Source of the DNA: a virus
Direction: 5' to 3' (one strand)
Virus record (IMG/VR): IMGVR_UViG_3300028115_000083
Location: 1 to 29,049 of that record
Length of the DNA: 29,049 nucleotides
The notes below the pieces were generated by a model. The model saw only the letters and a list, made by a program, of their open reading frames with translations, searched no databases and had not been told where the DNA came from. Position 1 is the stretch's first letter. The number at the start of each line of letters is the position of its first letter. A program made the translations under genes and the position numbers. Below, in pieces: positions 17,150 to 26,416 of this stretch.

Positions 17150-17980
17150 TTACTTCAACAAACCCAGCACTCGGGCACCTTTAATATCTAAAAACTCAGG
17201 TCTGTTACATATTAATAACATACCCCAACCACAATTGAAAGTATTTTCCATATCTTCCGACGTTAGGTCTAGTTTATGTTTTAAATCCTCCCAATAAGAG
17301 TCTAGGGTGAGATTAATAGCATAATCAAGCCCGTTGAGCACCCGTGGCAGATTTCCATGAATACCACCACCAGTTATATGAGCACAAGCTTTAATATACT
17401 TTAAGTTATTTAAAATCTCGTCTGTATATATTCTAGTAGGGGTTAATAAGTCTTCTGTCCAATTATCTAACTTTTTCCTAATAGTAGTAAATCCATTACT
17501 GTGGACACCACTACTAGGAATGCCTACTATATAGTCTCCTTTCATTACAGGAGAAGAGGGCAGTTTTTGCTCTACTACTCCCATTATGAACCCTGCTAAA
17601 TCAAACCATGAATTCTTAAAAAACATAGGATTTAGCTGAGCGGTCTCTCCTCCTACTAACTTACATCCAGCTAACTCACAGCCTTTCAGTACTCCAGCTA
17701 GAATCTCTTTACTCTTATCAAGATCGAGATTTCCAGTGGCGTAATAGTCTAAAAAGCTGTGTGGGCGTGCTCCAAGACATAAAATGTCATTAGCGCACAT
17801 AGCTACAAGATCAATACCTACAGTGTCGAACTTATTAAAGTGTTCTGCTATGAGAAGTTTAGTACCAACCCCGTCAGTAGATAATACTATTTCACTAGCA
17901 GAATCTACATTAACTACGGCTCCATAACCGGATATTCCTAAGTACTCTGCCAATTCATTTGCTTTAGCTTGATCAACCAT
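17150..17980 (-). CDS. purM: Compact phosphoribosylaminoimidazole synthetase (AIR synthetase, PurM)
   Basis: 276 aa from the ATG at 17980, chosen because it has GAGAAG just upstream and overlaps the polymerase stop by only eight bases. A longer reading would lack a good site. PurM converts FGAM plus ATP to AIR in purine synthesis. Conserved stretches are STDGVGTKL (Asp36), VGIDLVAMCANDILCLGA, FLDYYATGNLDLD, GCKLVGGETAQ, GIPSSGVHSNGF and HITGGGIHGNLPRVL. Compared with ~345-aa bacterial PurM it lacks the start of the N-terminal region before the first strand and part of the C-terminus. No frameshift or stop is seen, and the core is intact, so it is likely active as an auxiliary purine gene. Confidence 0.92.
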   Translation of the reverse strand: MVDQAKANELAEYLGISGYGAVVNVDSASEIVLSTDGVGTKLLIAEHFNKFDTVGIDLVAMCANDILCLGARPHSFLDYYATGNLDLDKSKEILAGVLKGCELAGCKLVGGETAQLNPMFFKNSWFDLAGFIMGVVEQKLPSSPVMKGDYIVGIPSSGVHSNGFTTIRKKLDNWTEDLLTPTRIYTDEILNNLKYIKACAHITGGGIHGNLPRVLNGLDYAINLTLDSYWEDLKHKLDLTSEDMENTFNCGWGMLLICNRPEFLDIKGARVLGLLK

Positions 17981-20255
17981 ATAACTTCTCGAATTTACCC
18001 ATTGAATAATCATCCCCAACTTCAAAGTCACAACCAACTGGGGCACCTGGAATACTAATACCTCTATCTAACTGAATATACTTTTGGAGAGCCTCCATGT
18101 AAGAGTCAATCTCTCCATCTGGAACTTCAGCCAGAATCGAGTCATGTACTAGAGCAAAGATACGAGCCTTCATCTTGTTTGCTTTTAAATGAATCTCCAT
18201 ATCAATAGCACCTAATAAGTTAATGTCAGATGCTACGGATTGTACTAAAAAGTTAAGTCCTGATCTAACACTATGACTCTGTACTCCTTTATCTGTAGAG
18301 GCAACATTAGGTAATCGTCTTTTTCTTCCAAAGAAACTATAGATAAATCCATTCTGTTGTATAAACTTCTGGTTCTGCTCAATCCATGACTTCAACTTAT
18401 GAAACTCTTTGAAGTACTCATCAATGACTTCTTGGGCTTCATTACGGCTAAAGTAAACTCCGCTATCCTTGGTTACTTGTTCACTAATCTTATTAGCGCC
18501 TGCACCATATAGAATACCAAAAGTTACAGCTTTAGTAGCCTGGCGTTGCATTGGGTAAAGTTTTGCTACATCTTCTACTTCACATGGTAGACTAAACACT
18601 TTCTTAGCAAGAGTACTGTGAAAGTTGCCTCCACTACGGAAAACATCTTTCAGTGCTTCATCTTCTGCTAGTACGGCAACAACATATACTTCTGCTGTTG
18701 TTAAGTCCATCGCTACAATCTTATGTCCAGGGGCTGCTTTAATGCAACCTTTTACTGTAGGGTTGTCTCTAGGAAGCTGCTGCATATTCAATTTACCACT
18801 AGAACTCAGGCGACCAGAGGTTGTAGTGTGTAGATTGAAACCAGTACGCAAACGAGAGTCTCTATCTAATTGTGGAATAATTTTATCTAAGTAAGTATTC
18901 TTGATCTTACTTTTCTGTCTAATGTCAATGATAAGTCCTGGCACTGGTGAAACCTGTGCCAACTCTGTCAGTACTTCTACATCTGTACTATCTGCTCCAG
19001 TTCCCGTCTTCTTACCAGTTGGATTAAGTCCCAGGAAGTCAAACATTAGCTTTCGTAGTTGTACTGTACTATTCGGATTAAAAGGTTTTCCTTGGATCTC
19101 CTCGAACTTCTTAATAGCAGGATTCTTGTACATCTCAGTCACAGCATGGTCAATATCATTTTGCATTTTTACTTGAGAGAACTCTAGTCTATCACGGTCA
19201 AATGGTACGCCATTGTCTTGAATGTCTGTCAGAAACCTACAGCCTGGGATAAGAATATTTTCATATACCCAGTTCAGTTTAGGATTCTGCTTAATCTTTA
19301 TAAACTTCTCGAACAACAAGAAAGTACATAAAGCATCCATACCAGCGTACAATTTCATGATATCAAAAGGAATCATTCCCCAATTGAAATCATCTTTCTT
19401 GATACCCCGCTCCTTCCTGTACTGATCCATCCAAGCGTACATCTCCTTTTCATAGTCACCATAAGGGGTGAACTTTAGAGACAGCTCTTTCAAGCCATGA
19501 CCGCCTGGGTTCTCATCAATCAAATAATGGAGAAGCATAGTATCTTCAAACTTAGGAAACTTGAAATTAAACTGATACTCAAAGAATGCCAAATCGAATT
19601 TCGCATTATGAAAGATTACAGTCTTTTTATTAAATAATTCTTGGAGCAGTCGTTCTGTTTCTTCGTCAAAGCACTCTGTATCTATATACGCGCCTTTCTT
19701 ATCGTCATACGCCATAGATAGACCTAGAATGTAGCCATCACGAGGATATAAGCCAGTAGTTTCAGAGTCTAAAGCTATATAAGGTTTAGGAGCATCAATT
19801 GCTTCTTGGATAAATTTATTGGCCTCAGCAGTGTCTTGAATGCCAAAAGCAACACTTTCATCAATTACTACTTCCTTGACTTCACCAGCGATGTATGAAA
19901 TGATACTATCTTTAGATGTGTCCCAGGTTTTCTTTGCTTCTGGTTTAAAAGCAAGCATAGCAGGGTTGATAATAGGCAAAAACTTGCCGTCTACAGCCTT
20001 ACCAGAGTAAGCTGTCACAGAATTGATTTTAGTGAAGTACTTCAAAGCGTCTGAACCTATCAGGATGATCCAGTCATAGGCTGCTATGTCAATTTGAATA
20101 TCACAGTGGCTTTTCAGAACCTTCTTAATAGTAGGGTCTGAACATAGCTGATATTGATCGAACTCAAACGAATGCTCGAATTCTTGCTTAAAATTAGTTC
20201 TACTTGGTTTTGTTTCTACTAGTGCTACTTTAGGCTTTATTAGAGTGCCTGTCAT
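17973..20255 (-). CDS. PolA-family DNA polymerase with 3'-5' exonuclease and UDG-like N-terminus
   Basis: 760 aa. Residues ~60-123 (WIILIGSDALKYFTK ... INPAMLAFKPEAKKTW) resemble the end of family 4/SPO1-type uracil-DNA-glycosylase domains. Proofreading exonuclease: D163-x-E165 (ALDSETTGL), N217/D221 (FHNAKFD), Y303/D307 (YAGMD). Polymerase: TTTSGRLSSSGKLNMQQLP, motif A D517 and E522 (MDLTTAEVYVV), motif B R571, K575, F579, Y583 (RQATKAVTFGILYG), motif C H704-D705 (LVHDSILAEV), where Ser replaces the usual Glu after HD. F579 equals E. coli Phe762. There is no 5' nuclease domain; that is the separate gene at 9466. The ATG lies 10 bases after the primase stop. This is the replicative polymerase. 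Confidence 0.95.
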   Translation of the reverse strand: MTGTLIKPKVALVETKPSRTNFKQEFEHSFEFDQYQLCSDPTIKKVLKSHCDIQIDIAAYDWIILIGSDALKYFTKINSVTAYSGKAVDGKFLPIINPAMLAFKPEAKKTWDTSKDSIISYIAGEVKEVVIDESVAFGIQDTAEANKFIQEAIDAPKPYIALDSETTGLYPRDGYILGLSMAYDDKKGAYIDTECFDEETERLLQELFNKKTVIFHNAKFDLAFFEYQFNFKFPKFEDTMLLHYLIDENPGGHGLKELSLKFTPYGDYEKEMYAWMDQYRKERGIKKDDFNWGMIPFDIMKLYAGMDALCTFLLFEKFIKIKQNPKLNWVYENILIPGCRFLTDIQDNGVPFDRDRLEFSQVKMQNDIDHAVTEMYKNPAIKKFEEIQGKPFNPNSTVQLRKLMFDFLGLNPTGKKTGTGADSTDVEVLTELAQVSPVPGLIIDIRQKSKIKNTYLDKIIPQLDRDSRLRTGFNLHTTTSGRLSSSGKLNMQQLPRDNPTVKGCIKAAPGHKIVAMDLTTAEVYVVAVLAEDEALKDVFRSGGNFHSTLAKKVFSLPCEVEDVAKLYPMQRQATKAVTFGILYGAGANKISEQVTKDSGVYFSRNEAQEVIDEYFKEFHKLKSWIEQNQKFIQQNGFIYSFFGRKRRLPNVASTDKGVQSHSVRSGLNFLVQSVASDINLLGAIDMEIHLKANKMKARIFALVHDSILAEVPDGEIDSYMEALQKYIQLDRGISIPGAPVGCDFEVGDDYSMGKFEKLYG

Positions 20256-22735: not shown

Positions 22736-22751
22736 AAGTTCCCCCGAACAA

Positions 22752-22789
22752 TAAAAAGCCAACACACGCCAAAAAGAGATGTGTTGGCT
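22752..22789 (-). terminator. Intrinsic terminator after the HTH-repeat gene
   Basis: Minus strand stem AGCCAACACA / TGTGTTGGCT (22789-22780 with 22766-22757), perfect 10 bp with a 13-base loop, followed by TTTTTAT. It ends the HTH-repeat transcript and lies just before the helicase ribosome site (22741-22745), so it could reduce helicase expression. Confidence 0.9.
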
Positions 22790-22804: not shown

Positions 22805-23530
22805 TTACTGAGCTGCTTTAGCAGCTTTAGCAGCACCATCGTAATCAGATGCAGCAGTACCACGACGGGTCAACATAGTCTTAACACCGCGAGCAGTTTT
22901 GCCGATTGACTCAGCGATAGCTTCGACAGTCATGTTAGCAACGTCGAGGTCTTCGAATGGATCACTCTTGTCAGTACCTTTCGTGAACTCTTGACGTGGG
23001 ATTGCATCAATCTCGCCAGCCCGTAGGAGGCTAAGAGCCTTACCACGAACAGAGTTTACACTACGATCCATTGACTCAGCAATAGCTTCTACGAAAGCAC
23101 CATCATTGACCATAGCAATGAAAGTAGCTTCTTCTTCTTCGCTGTACTTACGAACATTCTCGACTTTAGGAGCGGGCTTAACGTGTGCGGTCAGCTCCAT
23201 AGAGAGGATCTTGCCTTGGATTGACTTAGGCTCGAAAGAACCGCCTTCAAACAACTCAGCGATTTGAGCGTAAGTATATTGACCACTGTTGTCTGCTACG
23301 AAAGCAGCCAGAGTAGCTTCTTGTGCTTCAGAGTAAGACTTGCCTTTACCGGCAGAGGCCAGCTCTACATCAAAGCCCATCTTTCGCAGCTTGCTAGAGA
23401 TAGAACGTGTAGAGGTCTCAAGCAGCAAGGCTGCTTCGTTTACAGTACCGTATGATACTGGGCTTTCGTCACCGACGAAGGCTGTAAGTTGTGCTGAACG
23501 ATCATCGTTCCATTTTGGGGTAGTAGCCAT
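22805..23530 (-). CDS. Protein with four Myb/SANT-like HTH repeats, putative DNA-binding regulator or nucleoid protein
   Basis: 241 aa with AAAGGAATATTTAAAG before the ATG. Four related modules: 6-55 (KWNDDRSAQLTAFVGD ... SISSKLRKMGF), 65-118 (SYSEAQEATLAAFVAD ... SIQGKILSMEL), 129-175 (KYSEEEEATFIAMVND ... SVRGKALSLL) and a half module 199-225 (MTVEAIAESIGKTARGVKTM). Each has the aromatic-[NS]-[DE] opening, then IAE-type helix and an S-[IV]-x-x-K helix, as in SANT/Myb or FixJ-like HTH units. The C-terminus is AKAAKAAQ-like. A strong terminator follows, suggesting a separate, perhaps abundant, product. A single-module relative lies at 26060. DNA binding is inferred from fold pattern. Confidence 0.8.
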   Translation of the reverse strand: MATTPKWNDDRSAQLTAFVGDESPVSYGTVNEAALLLETSTRSISSKLRKMGFDVELASAGKGKSYSEAQEATLAAFVADNSGQYTYAQIAELFEGGSFEPKSIQGKILSMELTAHVKPAPKVENVRKYSEEEEATFIAMVNDGAFVEAIAESMDRSVNSVRGKALSLLRAGEIDAIPRQEFTKGTDKSDPFEDLDVANMTVEAIAESIGKTARGVKTMLTRRGTAASDYDGAAKAAKAAQ

Positions 23531-23544
23531 CTTTAAATATTCCT

Positions 23545-24306
23545 TTAAGGTTTAATTAACTCGGGTATGGTAGTCACTATGACTCCTTTGTCCCGAGCAG
23601 TTTTAGTTTTAATTGATTCGATTCCTGACTCATTAATTAAATGAGTACAGTCTTTAGTAAGTGTTGACTTAACAATAAAGCCATTTTGTTCTAAATAAGA
23701 GGTAGCTTCTGATTTACTAGAAAAACTCTTTAGTTTTCCTGTAATACATACTATACCAGCTATTCCATTTGTTGGTATTATATTCTTTGCTTTATTGAAC
23801 TTAAAACTAAATGGGAGATACCCATCGTAGAAAGCATAAAAGTCTTTGTGAAGCCATTCCATTAAACTATCCGTGGCTTTTGGGCCTAGGCCAGCTTCAA
23901 CACAGGTTTCTCTACTGATCTCACTAATACAAGTAATTGTTGTAGATAACTTTCTGGTTGCGTGCGTACCTATCAAGGGGATACCTAATGCGGGCAAAAG
24001 AATATCCAGAGAAGCAGATTTTGAGTTCTGGATCTCGGAATATAATTTTGCTGCAAGTTTATCAGATGAGAGACACTCTGCTATCTGAGCCTCAGATAAG
24101 GCATAGATCATATCAAAATCAGTAATACCTAACTTAGAGATACTACTTGGGCCTAGACCCTTGATCTTGAGTACTTTCGCAAAGTGCTCTACTTTTTTCT
24201 GACACTGTGAGGCACAGGACGTGTTCTCACAATACAAAATATGATTAACAAAAATCAACTCCGATGCACAGCTAGGGCAATGCGTTGGGGCTTCAATTGA
24301 AATCAT
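23545..24306 (-). CDS. ligB: NAD-dependent DNA ligase, C-terminal subunit (zinc finger, HhH, BRCT)
   Basis: 253 aa. Zinc finger C10-x2-C13 ... C26-x4-C31, helix-hairpin-helix motifs (VLKIKGLGPSSISKL, LPALGIPLIGTHATRKL, CVEAGLGPKATDSL) and a BRCT domain from about 175 (NGIAGIVCITGKLKSF ... LTKDCTHLINES). These are the DNA-encircling domains of LigA. The adenylation and OB domains are in the next gene upstream (24383). A full LigA is ~670 aa; the two products total ~560. The start has AAGGAGAG and its own promoter, and the gap is 76 bases, so the split is genuine rather than a frameshift. T5 also splits its ligase. Confidence 0.92.
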   Translation of the reverse strand: MISIEAPTHCPSCASELIFVNHILYCENTSCASQCQKKVEHFAKVLKIKGLGPSSISKLGITDFDMIYALSEAQIAECLSSDKLAAKLYSEIQNSKSASLDILLPALGIPLIGTHATRKLSTTITCISEISRETCVEAGLGPKATDSLMEWLHKDFYAFYDGYLPFSFKFNKAKNIIPTNGIAGIVCITGKLKSFSSKSEATSYLEQNGFIVKSTLTKDCTHLINESGIESIKTKTARDKGVIVTTIPELIKP

Positions 24307-24333: not shown

Positions 24334-24362
24334 ATTATATATATCTTTAGGTATAATGTCAA
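24334..24362 (-). promoter_or_regulatory. Sigma70 promoter for the ligase C-terminal gene
   Basis: Minus strand TTGACA (24362-24357), 17-base spacer, TATAAT (24339-24334), preceded by GAAAAATAGTAC and followed by ATACATTC. Full consensus on both boxes. Sequence around it nearly repeats the promoter at 25335. Confidence 0.88.
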
Positions 24363-25372: not shown

Positions 25373-25654
25373 TTATGTTAGAGGGAAAATCTCTCTGACT
25401 ATCTCGTCAACTTCTGCTAAAGATAGAATCTCGCATAAGCCAATGAATAGTTCCCTAGAATTACTTAGATCCAGAGGCATAGAGATACCTTCCGGAGAAG
25501 GCTTCCATTCCTCATCAAAGTCTAAATAAAACTTTCGTAAACCAAGATACTCAGTACCTCGGAATATATTAACGGTAAGTCTAACTTGTATCTCTTTAAC
25601 TGCATCATAATGAATAACACGAGAATACGCATCAGGGGATTCGTGAATCTCCAT
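25373..25654 (-). CDS. PC4-like ssDNA-binding transcription coactivator homologue
   Basis: 93 aa from the ATG at 25654, which overlaps the upstream stop (TAATG). The stretch VRLTVNIFRGTEYLGLRKFY, then DFDEEWKPSPEGISMPL and a C-terminal helix (SRELFIGLCEIL), matches the PC4/p15 fold: four strands with R-K-Y/F-Y, GEW-KP and GIS motifs, then a helix that dimerises. PC4 proteins bind and unwind ssDNA. A homologue in phage T5 was linked to recombination-dependent replication. Residues after ~75 (EVDEIVREIFPLT) are an acidic helical tail. Located just before the split ligase. The fold call is confident; a role in transcription or replication is inferred. Confidence 0.85.
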   Translation of the reverse strand: MEIHESPDAYSRVIHYDAVKEIQVRLTVNIFRGTEYLGLRKFYLDFDEEWKPSPEGISMPLDLSNSRELFIGLCEILSLAEVDEIVREIFPLT

Positions 25655-25926
25655 TAGCGAGCACCTGTATTTTTCAATATAGCAGAAAGAGGTGTCACAC
25701 TCGTTACATAGCTGGGTTTTAATAACCGATAAGAATCGGTATCCCAACAAAATAACAGCAGTGTACTATCGGTTTCTTTTGCTCTATTAATTTTTTGTTG
25801 AACATACGGCGTACTAAAATCTAATGTGCAAACATTGTACTTTAGTTTCTTACTATTCTCACTCCGATAGGTGATAATAGCATCTCCGTATTCTTCAACA
25901 AGCTGTGTTAATTGTTCTTTTCTCAC
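25654..25926 (-). CDS. Unknown 90-aa protein coupled to the PC4-like gene
   Basis: GTG start with AAAGGAATAACT upstream. The sequence AIITYRSENSKKLKYNVCTL, followed by DFSTPYVQQK and LLLFCWDTDSYRLLKP, looks highly constrained and resembles small proteins recalled from other phages. Predicted alpha-beta, no catalytic motif. Its stop overlaps the PC4-like ATG (TAATG), so the two are made together, hinting at a shared complex. Function unknown. Confidence 0.75.
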   Translation of the reverse strand: MRKEQLTQLVEEYGDAIITYRSENSKKLKYNVCTLDFSTPYVQQKINRAKETDSTLLLFCWDTDSYRLLKPSYVTSVTPLSAILKNTGAR

Positions 25927-26059: not shown

Positions 26060-26416
26060 TTAGTTGTTGATGGCGGCAATAACAGTAGCAAAATACTGTG
26101 CGGCTTTACCAGTCAACTTACTGATGATTTCGTCATCTACTTCCTGCCCTGCTGAAGTGATTGCAGCAGTGAGGCTTTCTTGCGCGTCAGCTTTGGAAAC
26201 TCGTGTACTACCTGTAGGGGCAGCTGCAGTCTTACCGGCTGCTGGGGTCTTTTTGATATAAACGCCAGCTTTAGTAAGAATCATACGAACGCCGTTAGGG
26301 GACTCTTCGTACTCGTCTGCGATTTCTTTTACAATTTCCATACTGTTTTCTGGGGTAGGTTCTGCTGCTTCGTATGCTTCAACTACTGCTGCTTTCTTTT
26401 CGTCTGTCCAAGCCAT
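26060..26416 (-). CDS. Small Myb/SANT-like HTH protein, paralogue of the HTH-repeat protein
   Basis: 118 aa from ATG 26416 (AAAGGAATAGAAAA site). The first ~55 residues, AWTDEKKAAVVEAYEAAEP ... MEIVKEIADEYEESPNGVRM, follow the same module as the four-repeat protein at 22805. A linker rich in Ala, Thr and Gly and a C-terminal helical part (AAITSAGQEVDDEIISKLTG) follow. An earlier in-frame ATG at 26500 with GAGGAAAG is possible and would add 28 basic residues; ATGs further upstream (26512, 26545) lie too near or before the expected transcript start. Own promoter, so likely well expressed. Probably DNA-binding, maybe a regulator. Confidence 0.78.
   Translation of the reverse strand: MAWTDEKKAAVVEAYEAAEPTPENSMEIVKEIADEYEESPNGVRMILTKAGVYIKKTPAAGKTAAAPTGSTRVSKADAQESLTAAITSAGQEVDDEIISKLTGKAAQYFATVIAAINN

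Follow-up and report, generated by a model that had tools for sequence, protein, structure and literature searches.

Background

The closest described relative of the gene considered here is D5 of phage T5 (T5.118). According to the T5 record, D5 binds DNA, is needed both to replicate DNA and for late transcription, and is involved in expression shut-off. In that record the genes run ligA, ligB, D5, D6 (helicase), primase, polymerase, interrupted after D6 by a homing endonuclease gene, and two promoters are annotated upstream of ligB. A study of T5 transcription called the mechanism of the class switch, from early to late, unknown (PMC7472727). According to a 2026 preprint, retron-Kva2 is triggered by T5 D5, which is toxic alone; the preprint also reports that D5 remodels a DNA-containing retron complex in vitro, that its HTH is predicted by AlphaFold3 to bind the retron msdDNA, and that mutations allowing escape from retron-Kva2 are located in D2, D3 and D5 (PMC13405049). 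Proteomics placed D5 among the major proteins of particles of the Yersinia phage phiR2-01, while it was not found in T5 virions (PMC8624392); given the latter, the D5 in the phiR2-01 particles may reflect carry-over.

We analysed a 29-kb viral genome fragment (29,049 nucleotides, hereafter the window), in which one gene had been singled out by an initial annotation as encoding a protein of four HTH modules with a possible nucleoid-like or regulatory role.

Identity and genomic place of the gene

Two neighbouring genes of the window are needed for what follows.

22805..23530, minus strand: D5 protein gene, 241 aa, four HTH modules (phrog_323 match, tblastn and an alignment of 25 relatives)
23545..24306, minus strand: ligB, NAD+ DNA ligase, C-terminal subunit (phrog_3498, E 4e-57)

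The coordinates, strand and open reading frame first given for the D5 gene were right; it starts with ATG and has AAGGA upstream. In PHROGs, phrog_323 ('transcriptional regulator, D5-like') matches residues 3-238 with E 9.9e-40. A tblastn search found 899 phage records matching the protein, with at least 80% of it covered in 895. Nearly all of these phages are T5-like, their hosts being Vibrio, Salmonella, Escherichia, Klebsiella, Proteus, Aeromonas and others, and the records label the product 'D5 protein', 'late gene transcription factor' or hypothetical. A relative is also encoded on at least 590 viral-contig stretches, the closest among the matches listed being 97-99% identical. The protein can hence no longer be regarded as unusual for a phage, nor its function as new, since D5 of the relative T5 is already annotated. 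No near-identical named phages were found. T5 itself is about 49% identical over 81%, and other T5-like phages, those of Vibrio and Klebsiella among them, are 41-50% identical over 94-96%.

The gene lies, as first reported, between ligase subunit B, which precedes it and with which it is presumably co-transcribed, and the DnaB-type helicase D6, which follows. The gene order is identical to that of T5, from ligA through ligB, D5, D6 and primase to polymerase. Full-length homology (45% identity in an alignment to T5-type D5), genome place, and the pattern of modules and recognition helices described below all agree with membership of the phrog_323 D5 family. Judged by sequence comparison, the gene is that of the D5 protein of a T5-like marine phage. 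Binding of double-stranded DNA and a requirement in replication and late transcription are annotated for T5 D5 and would extend to the window protein by analogy; the DNA-binding role, nucleoid-like or regulatory or both, that had been proposed from the sequence matches that annotation.

The two proteins also differ. In T5 D5, module 1 contains a 6-aa insertion and the tail is longer, leaving window D5 14 aa shorter; window D5 is also the more acidic (pI 4.9 versus 6.3).

Two side observations may be added. In a single scan of genome contigs for cellular homologues, only five D5 relatives turned up, in metagenome-assembled bins. Labels of bins with D5 genes are Halieaceae, Porticoccaceae, Alphaproteobacteria and Aureispira; these are probably phage contigs binned with bacteria, and the labels hint only weakly at hosts. 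The window also carries, at 17150-18046 on the minus strand, a phosphoribosylaminoimidazole synthetase gene (PurM-like, phrog_1207), a probable auxiliary metabolic gene. It is placed between polymerase and D10 helicase, an interval from which it is absent in T5.

Four HTH modules on one chain

The protein divides into the following parts.

23363..23518, minus strand: HTH module 1, residues 5-56 (AlphaFold2 helices 9-19, 27-36 and 41-50; recognition helix 41-50)
23183..23347, minus strand: HTH module 2, residues 62-116 (AlphaFold2 helices 68-80, 87-97 and 101-110; recognition helix 101-110)
23006..23158, minus strand: HTH module 3, residues 125-175 (AlphaFold2 helices 131-142, 147-153 and 158-170; recognition helix 158-170, with the motif VRGKALSLLR)
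22853..22963, minus strand: HTH module 4, residues 190-226 (AlphaFold2 helices 202-209 and 213-223; recognition helix 213-223)
22808..22852, minus strand: conserved C-terminal tail (SDYDGAAKAAKAAQ), predicted helix

We compared the modules (M1, residues 3-60; M2, 61-118; M3, 122-178; M4, 184-232) by running hhalign on sub-alignments from the 25 relatives, with 60 column-shuffled controls. All six pairs score 17-39, above every control (null means 9-10, maxima 14-16), which bears out the earlier view that the four are related. The best pair is M2-M3 (39.0, null maximum 16.0) and the weakest M2-M4 (17.3, null maximum 15.7); M4 is tied to the others mainly through its likeness to M1 and M3. The shared motifs noticed earlier hold in part. 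An aromatic-[NS]-[DE] opening is present in three modules (WND, YSE, YSE), as is an S-[IV]-x-x-K helix (SISSK, SIQGK, SVRGK), but module 4, which is short and resembles sigma-70 region 4, lacks the aromatic opening and has RGVKT in place of the helix motif.

AlphaFold2 predicts four modules of about three helices each for window D5 (pLDDT 84.9, pTM 0.34), and the model of T5 D5 likewise has four helical modules (pLDDT 88.1, pTM 0.46). Neither model fixes the arrangement between modules. Such high local and low overall confidence suggests beads on a string, that is, HTH domains joined by flexible linkers; the structure prediction proposed earlier as a check agrees with the HTH reading.

Conservation among the 25 relatives is concentrated where DNA would be read. 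Invariant positions make up 21 of 44 in the four recognition helices, compared with 6 of 72 in helices 1-2, and 10 of the 11 invariant K/R residues fall in recognition helices, spread across all four modules. With invariant residues in every module, all four look like working DNA-contact modules. Invariant residues (D229, D231, G232 and K238) also occur in the C-terminal tail. The window protein as a whole is acidic (pI 4.9, net charge -8), which argues against simple electrostatic coating and for binding through helix faces.

As to the kind of HTH, the Myb/SANT likeness proposed at first is not supported. Window D5 has no match to the Pfam Myb model, and PF00249 matches weakly in only seven of the 25 relatives (best E 0.0043). 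Sigma-70 region 4 and HTH_23 fit better than Myb, yet below the cut-off for window D5: its module 4 scores 20.2 bits with Sigma70_r4_2, under the Pfam cut-off of 25.7. The likeness to sigma-70 region 4 is seen in all 25 relatives (best E 4.5e-9). Tandem three-helix DNA-binding modules are what D5 shares with Myb/SANT and homeodomain repeats, but there is no significant sequence membership. Sequence searches of the PDB (phmmer and profile) gave nothing meaningful, the top profile matches being engrailed-type homeodomain chains at E 0.002, and Foldseek found no match in the PDB at E <= 0.001, a blank to be expected of flexibly linked modules. With HU, H-NS and Fis, D5 has in common its abundance and a proposed coating of DNA. 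A sequence relation was not found, no Pfam match to these families appearing for window D5 or among the families listed for its relatives, and D5 differs in carrying four HTH beads per chain.

A nearer relation is offered by another gene of the same early region.

26060..26416, minus strand: D3 protein gene (phrog_1725, E 2.5e-30)

The D3 profile matches D5 from module 1 on (hhalign 41.2, shuffled maximum 20.3), which makes D3 (T5.113 in T5) a one-module relative of D5. Like D5 it has a W-T-D-E opening, an HTH akin to module 1 and high codon optimality; unlike D5, it has a single HTH followed by a different C-terminal part, within about 118 aa. A PC4-like protein is encoded nearby, at 25373-25750 on the minus strand (PF02229, E 1.4e-9), and by position corresponds to T5.115.

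A predicted transcription unit of its own

Signals for expression flank ligB and D5.

24334..24362, minus strand: sigma-70 promoter of the ligB-D5 unit, 12/12 consensus, just upstream of ligB
22749..22789, minus strand: terminator-type hairpin with a T tail, perfect 10-bp stem, directly after D5

A promoter matching at least 11/12 is found at the corresponding place in 59 of the 60 loci that have enough upstream sequence, where 0.11 per locus would be expected. One strong promoter is found in the window, compared with the two annotated in T5. The strong terminator initially noted right after D5 is indeed there, as a perfect 10-bp inverted repeat (22757-22766/22780-22789) followed by TTTTTATT on the minus strand. 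Its loop exceeds 8 nt, which is why a simple terminator scan misses it; it was detected by an inverted-repeat search and a longer-loop scan. Under strict criteria, 55 of 72 distinct loci have a terminator-type hairpin no more than 100 nt from the D5 stop, where shuffled sequences would give 0.45. Terminator density after D5 is 7.6 per kb, compared with at most 0.2 per kb in the surroundings. Most of the other 17 loci have a hairpin with a mismatch or G-T pairs. This is also the case in T5, whose record annotates no terminator after D5 and whose hairpin (AAGGGGAGGGGGCTATGCTCCTTCCCCTTTTT) is visible by eye though missed by the strict scan. Many of the loci behind the promoter and terminator counts are closely related, hence these are counts of non-independent events. 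The hairpin stems vary in sequence among loci, which suggests that structure is kept rather than sequence. Read from these signals, promoter, ligB, D5 and terminator form a predicted transcription unit that is dedicated and conserved.

The listed GTG start of the helicase gene D6 (22765, minus strand) falls within this hairpin. Translation probably begins instead at an in-frame TTG (22735) preceded by GGGGGAAC, as in many relatives.

An extended element, AAAAATARTWCTTGAC, is common to the early promoters of D3, ligA and ligB (26566, 25374 and 24373, minus strand), and relatives too keep it ahead of ligB. Possible readings are an UP element and the site of a phage regulator.

Codon usage

Codon optimality was corrected for amino-acid composition, the raw value being inflated by the alanine content of D5. 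In T5, D5 ranks first in observed over expected optimality (1.53), with the major capsid protein at 1.48. D3 (1.30) and D11 (1.28) lie below these, and the neighbours of D5 are low (ligB 0.79, D6 0.98). The window gene at the place of D11 has matches to families of single-strand DNA-binding proteins. Among 21 window genes D5 again comes first (z 4.4-5.4), and D3 second; the optimal codons were taken to be those of E. coli rather than of the marine host, so the window values are a lower-grade test. Optimisation of this order, capsid-like in T5, fits a DNA-coating protein made in stoichiometric amounts better than it fits a scarce regulator. Abundance is backed by codon usage and by the one published proteomics study.

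What D5 may do

The explanation that we consider probable is that D5 of this marine T5-like phage is an abundant, early-made protein binding double-stranded DNA, with four HTH beads on flexible linkers, that coats or organises replicating phage DNA and thereby aids both replication and the shift from early to late transcription. Its computed basis is the family, the gene order, the four HTH modules, the conserved basic recognition helices, the promoter-ligB-D5-terminator unit and codon usage of the kind found in highly abundant phage proteins. DNA binding, the need in replication and late transcription, and shut-off come from the T5 record and would apply here by analogy. Under such a scheme the modules would bind side by side on the duplex, so that one protein might span several turns. 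Many such proteins could together build up a nucleoid-like coat, displacing RNA polymerase from early promoters or blocking it there, and the terminator after D5 would leave D5 in excess over the replisome enzymes encoded downstream. Support of late transcription by coating would follow the T5 annotation. Abundance and DNA contact are supported by the present data; the link from coating to the transcription switch is what we infer. There are points against the scheme. The acidity of window D5 is unlike typical electrostatic nucleoid coats, and the retron preprint describes a T5 escaper whose D5 gene carries a stop at W74 (PMC13405049), which sits badly with an indispensable D5 unless the stop is suppressed. 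The failure to see D5 in T5 virions, noted above, also counts against it.

D5 might instead be mainly a sequence-specific transcription factor, its four modules reading arrayed sites in early or late promoters, with action confined to those sites. HTH arrays often confer specificity, module 4 has its sigma-70-like character in all 25 relatives, many records call D5 a late transcription factor, and the extra element AAAAATARTTC upstream of early promoters is something that might be read. But codon usage and a dedicated strong promoter point to high copy number rather than to a scarce factor, the upstream element is A-rich and might serve host RNA polymerase as an ordinary UP element, and the analysis linked D5 to no site. 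We regard this reading as rather improbable. Less probable still is that D5 is chiefly a replication accessory, for example one that loads the helicase or replisome by contacting D6, and that it affects transcription only indirectly. Its gene does lie between ligase and helicase in the replication cluster, and late transcription in phages often depends on replication; against this, D5 consists of four DNA-reading modules with no enzymatic or loader domain, and its expression signals set it apart from the downstream replisome genes. That the four-module look is a chance similarity of helical, Ala-rich segments is hardly credible: although the modules are short and weakly alike, with M2-M4 barely above its controls, every pair beats every shuffled control, invariant basic residues recur at the same place in each module, and the two structure models agree.

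Returning to an abundant coat of HTH beads, a bolder version can be proposed tentatively, as a possibility we would not bet on: D5 may be a four-bead phage chromatin protein whose stoichiometric cover of the whole replicating genome itself performs the T5 early-to-late switch, with D3 as a one-bead partner sharing its sites.

Significance

Membership of the D5 family and the general function, in T5, were already known. In a partial literature search we found no earlier description of the four-module architecture, the relationship with D3, the promoter-ligB-D5-terminator unit or the codon evidence for abundance. The unit and the D3 relationship can be used in annotating a very common group of marine phages. 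Since D5 is a reported trigger of retron defence, its modular anatomy bears on how defence senses phages. A four-module DNA reader made at a capsid-like codon level is a plausible direct cause of the early-to-late switch of T5, and one that can be dissected module by module.
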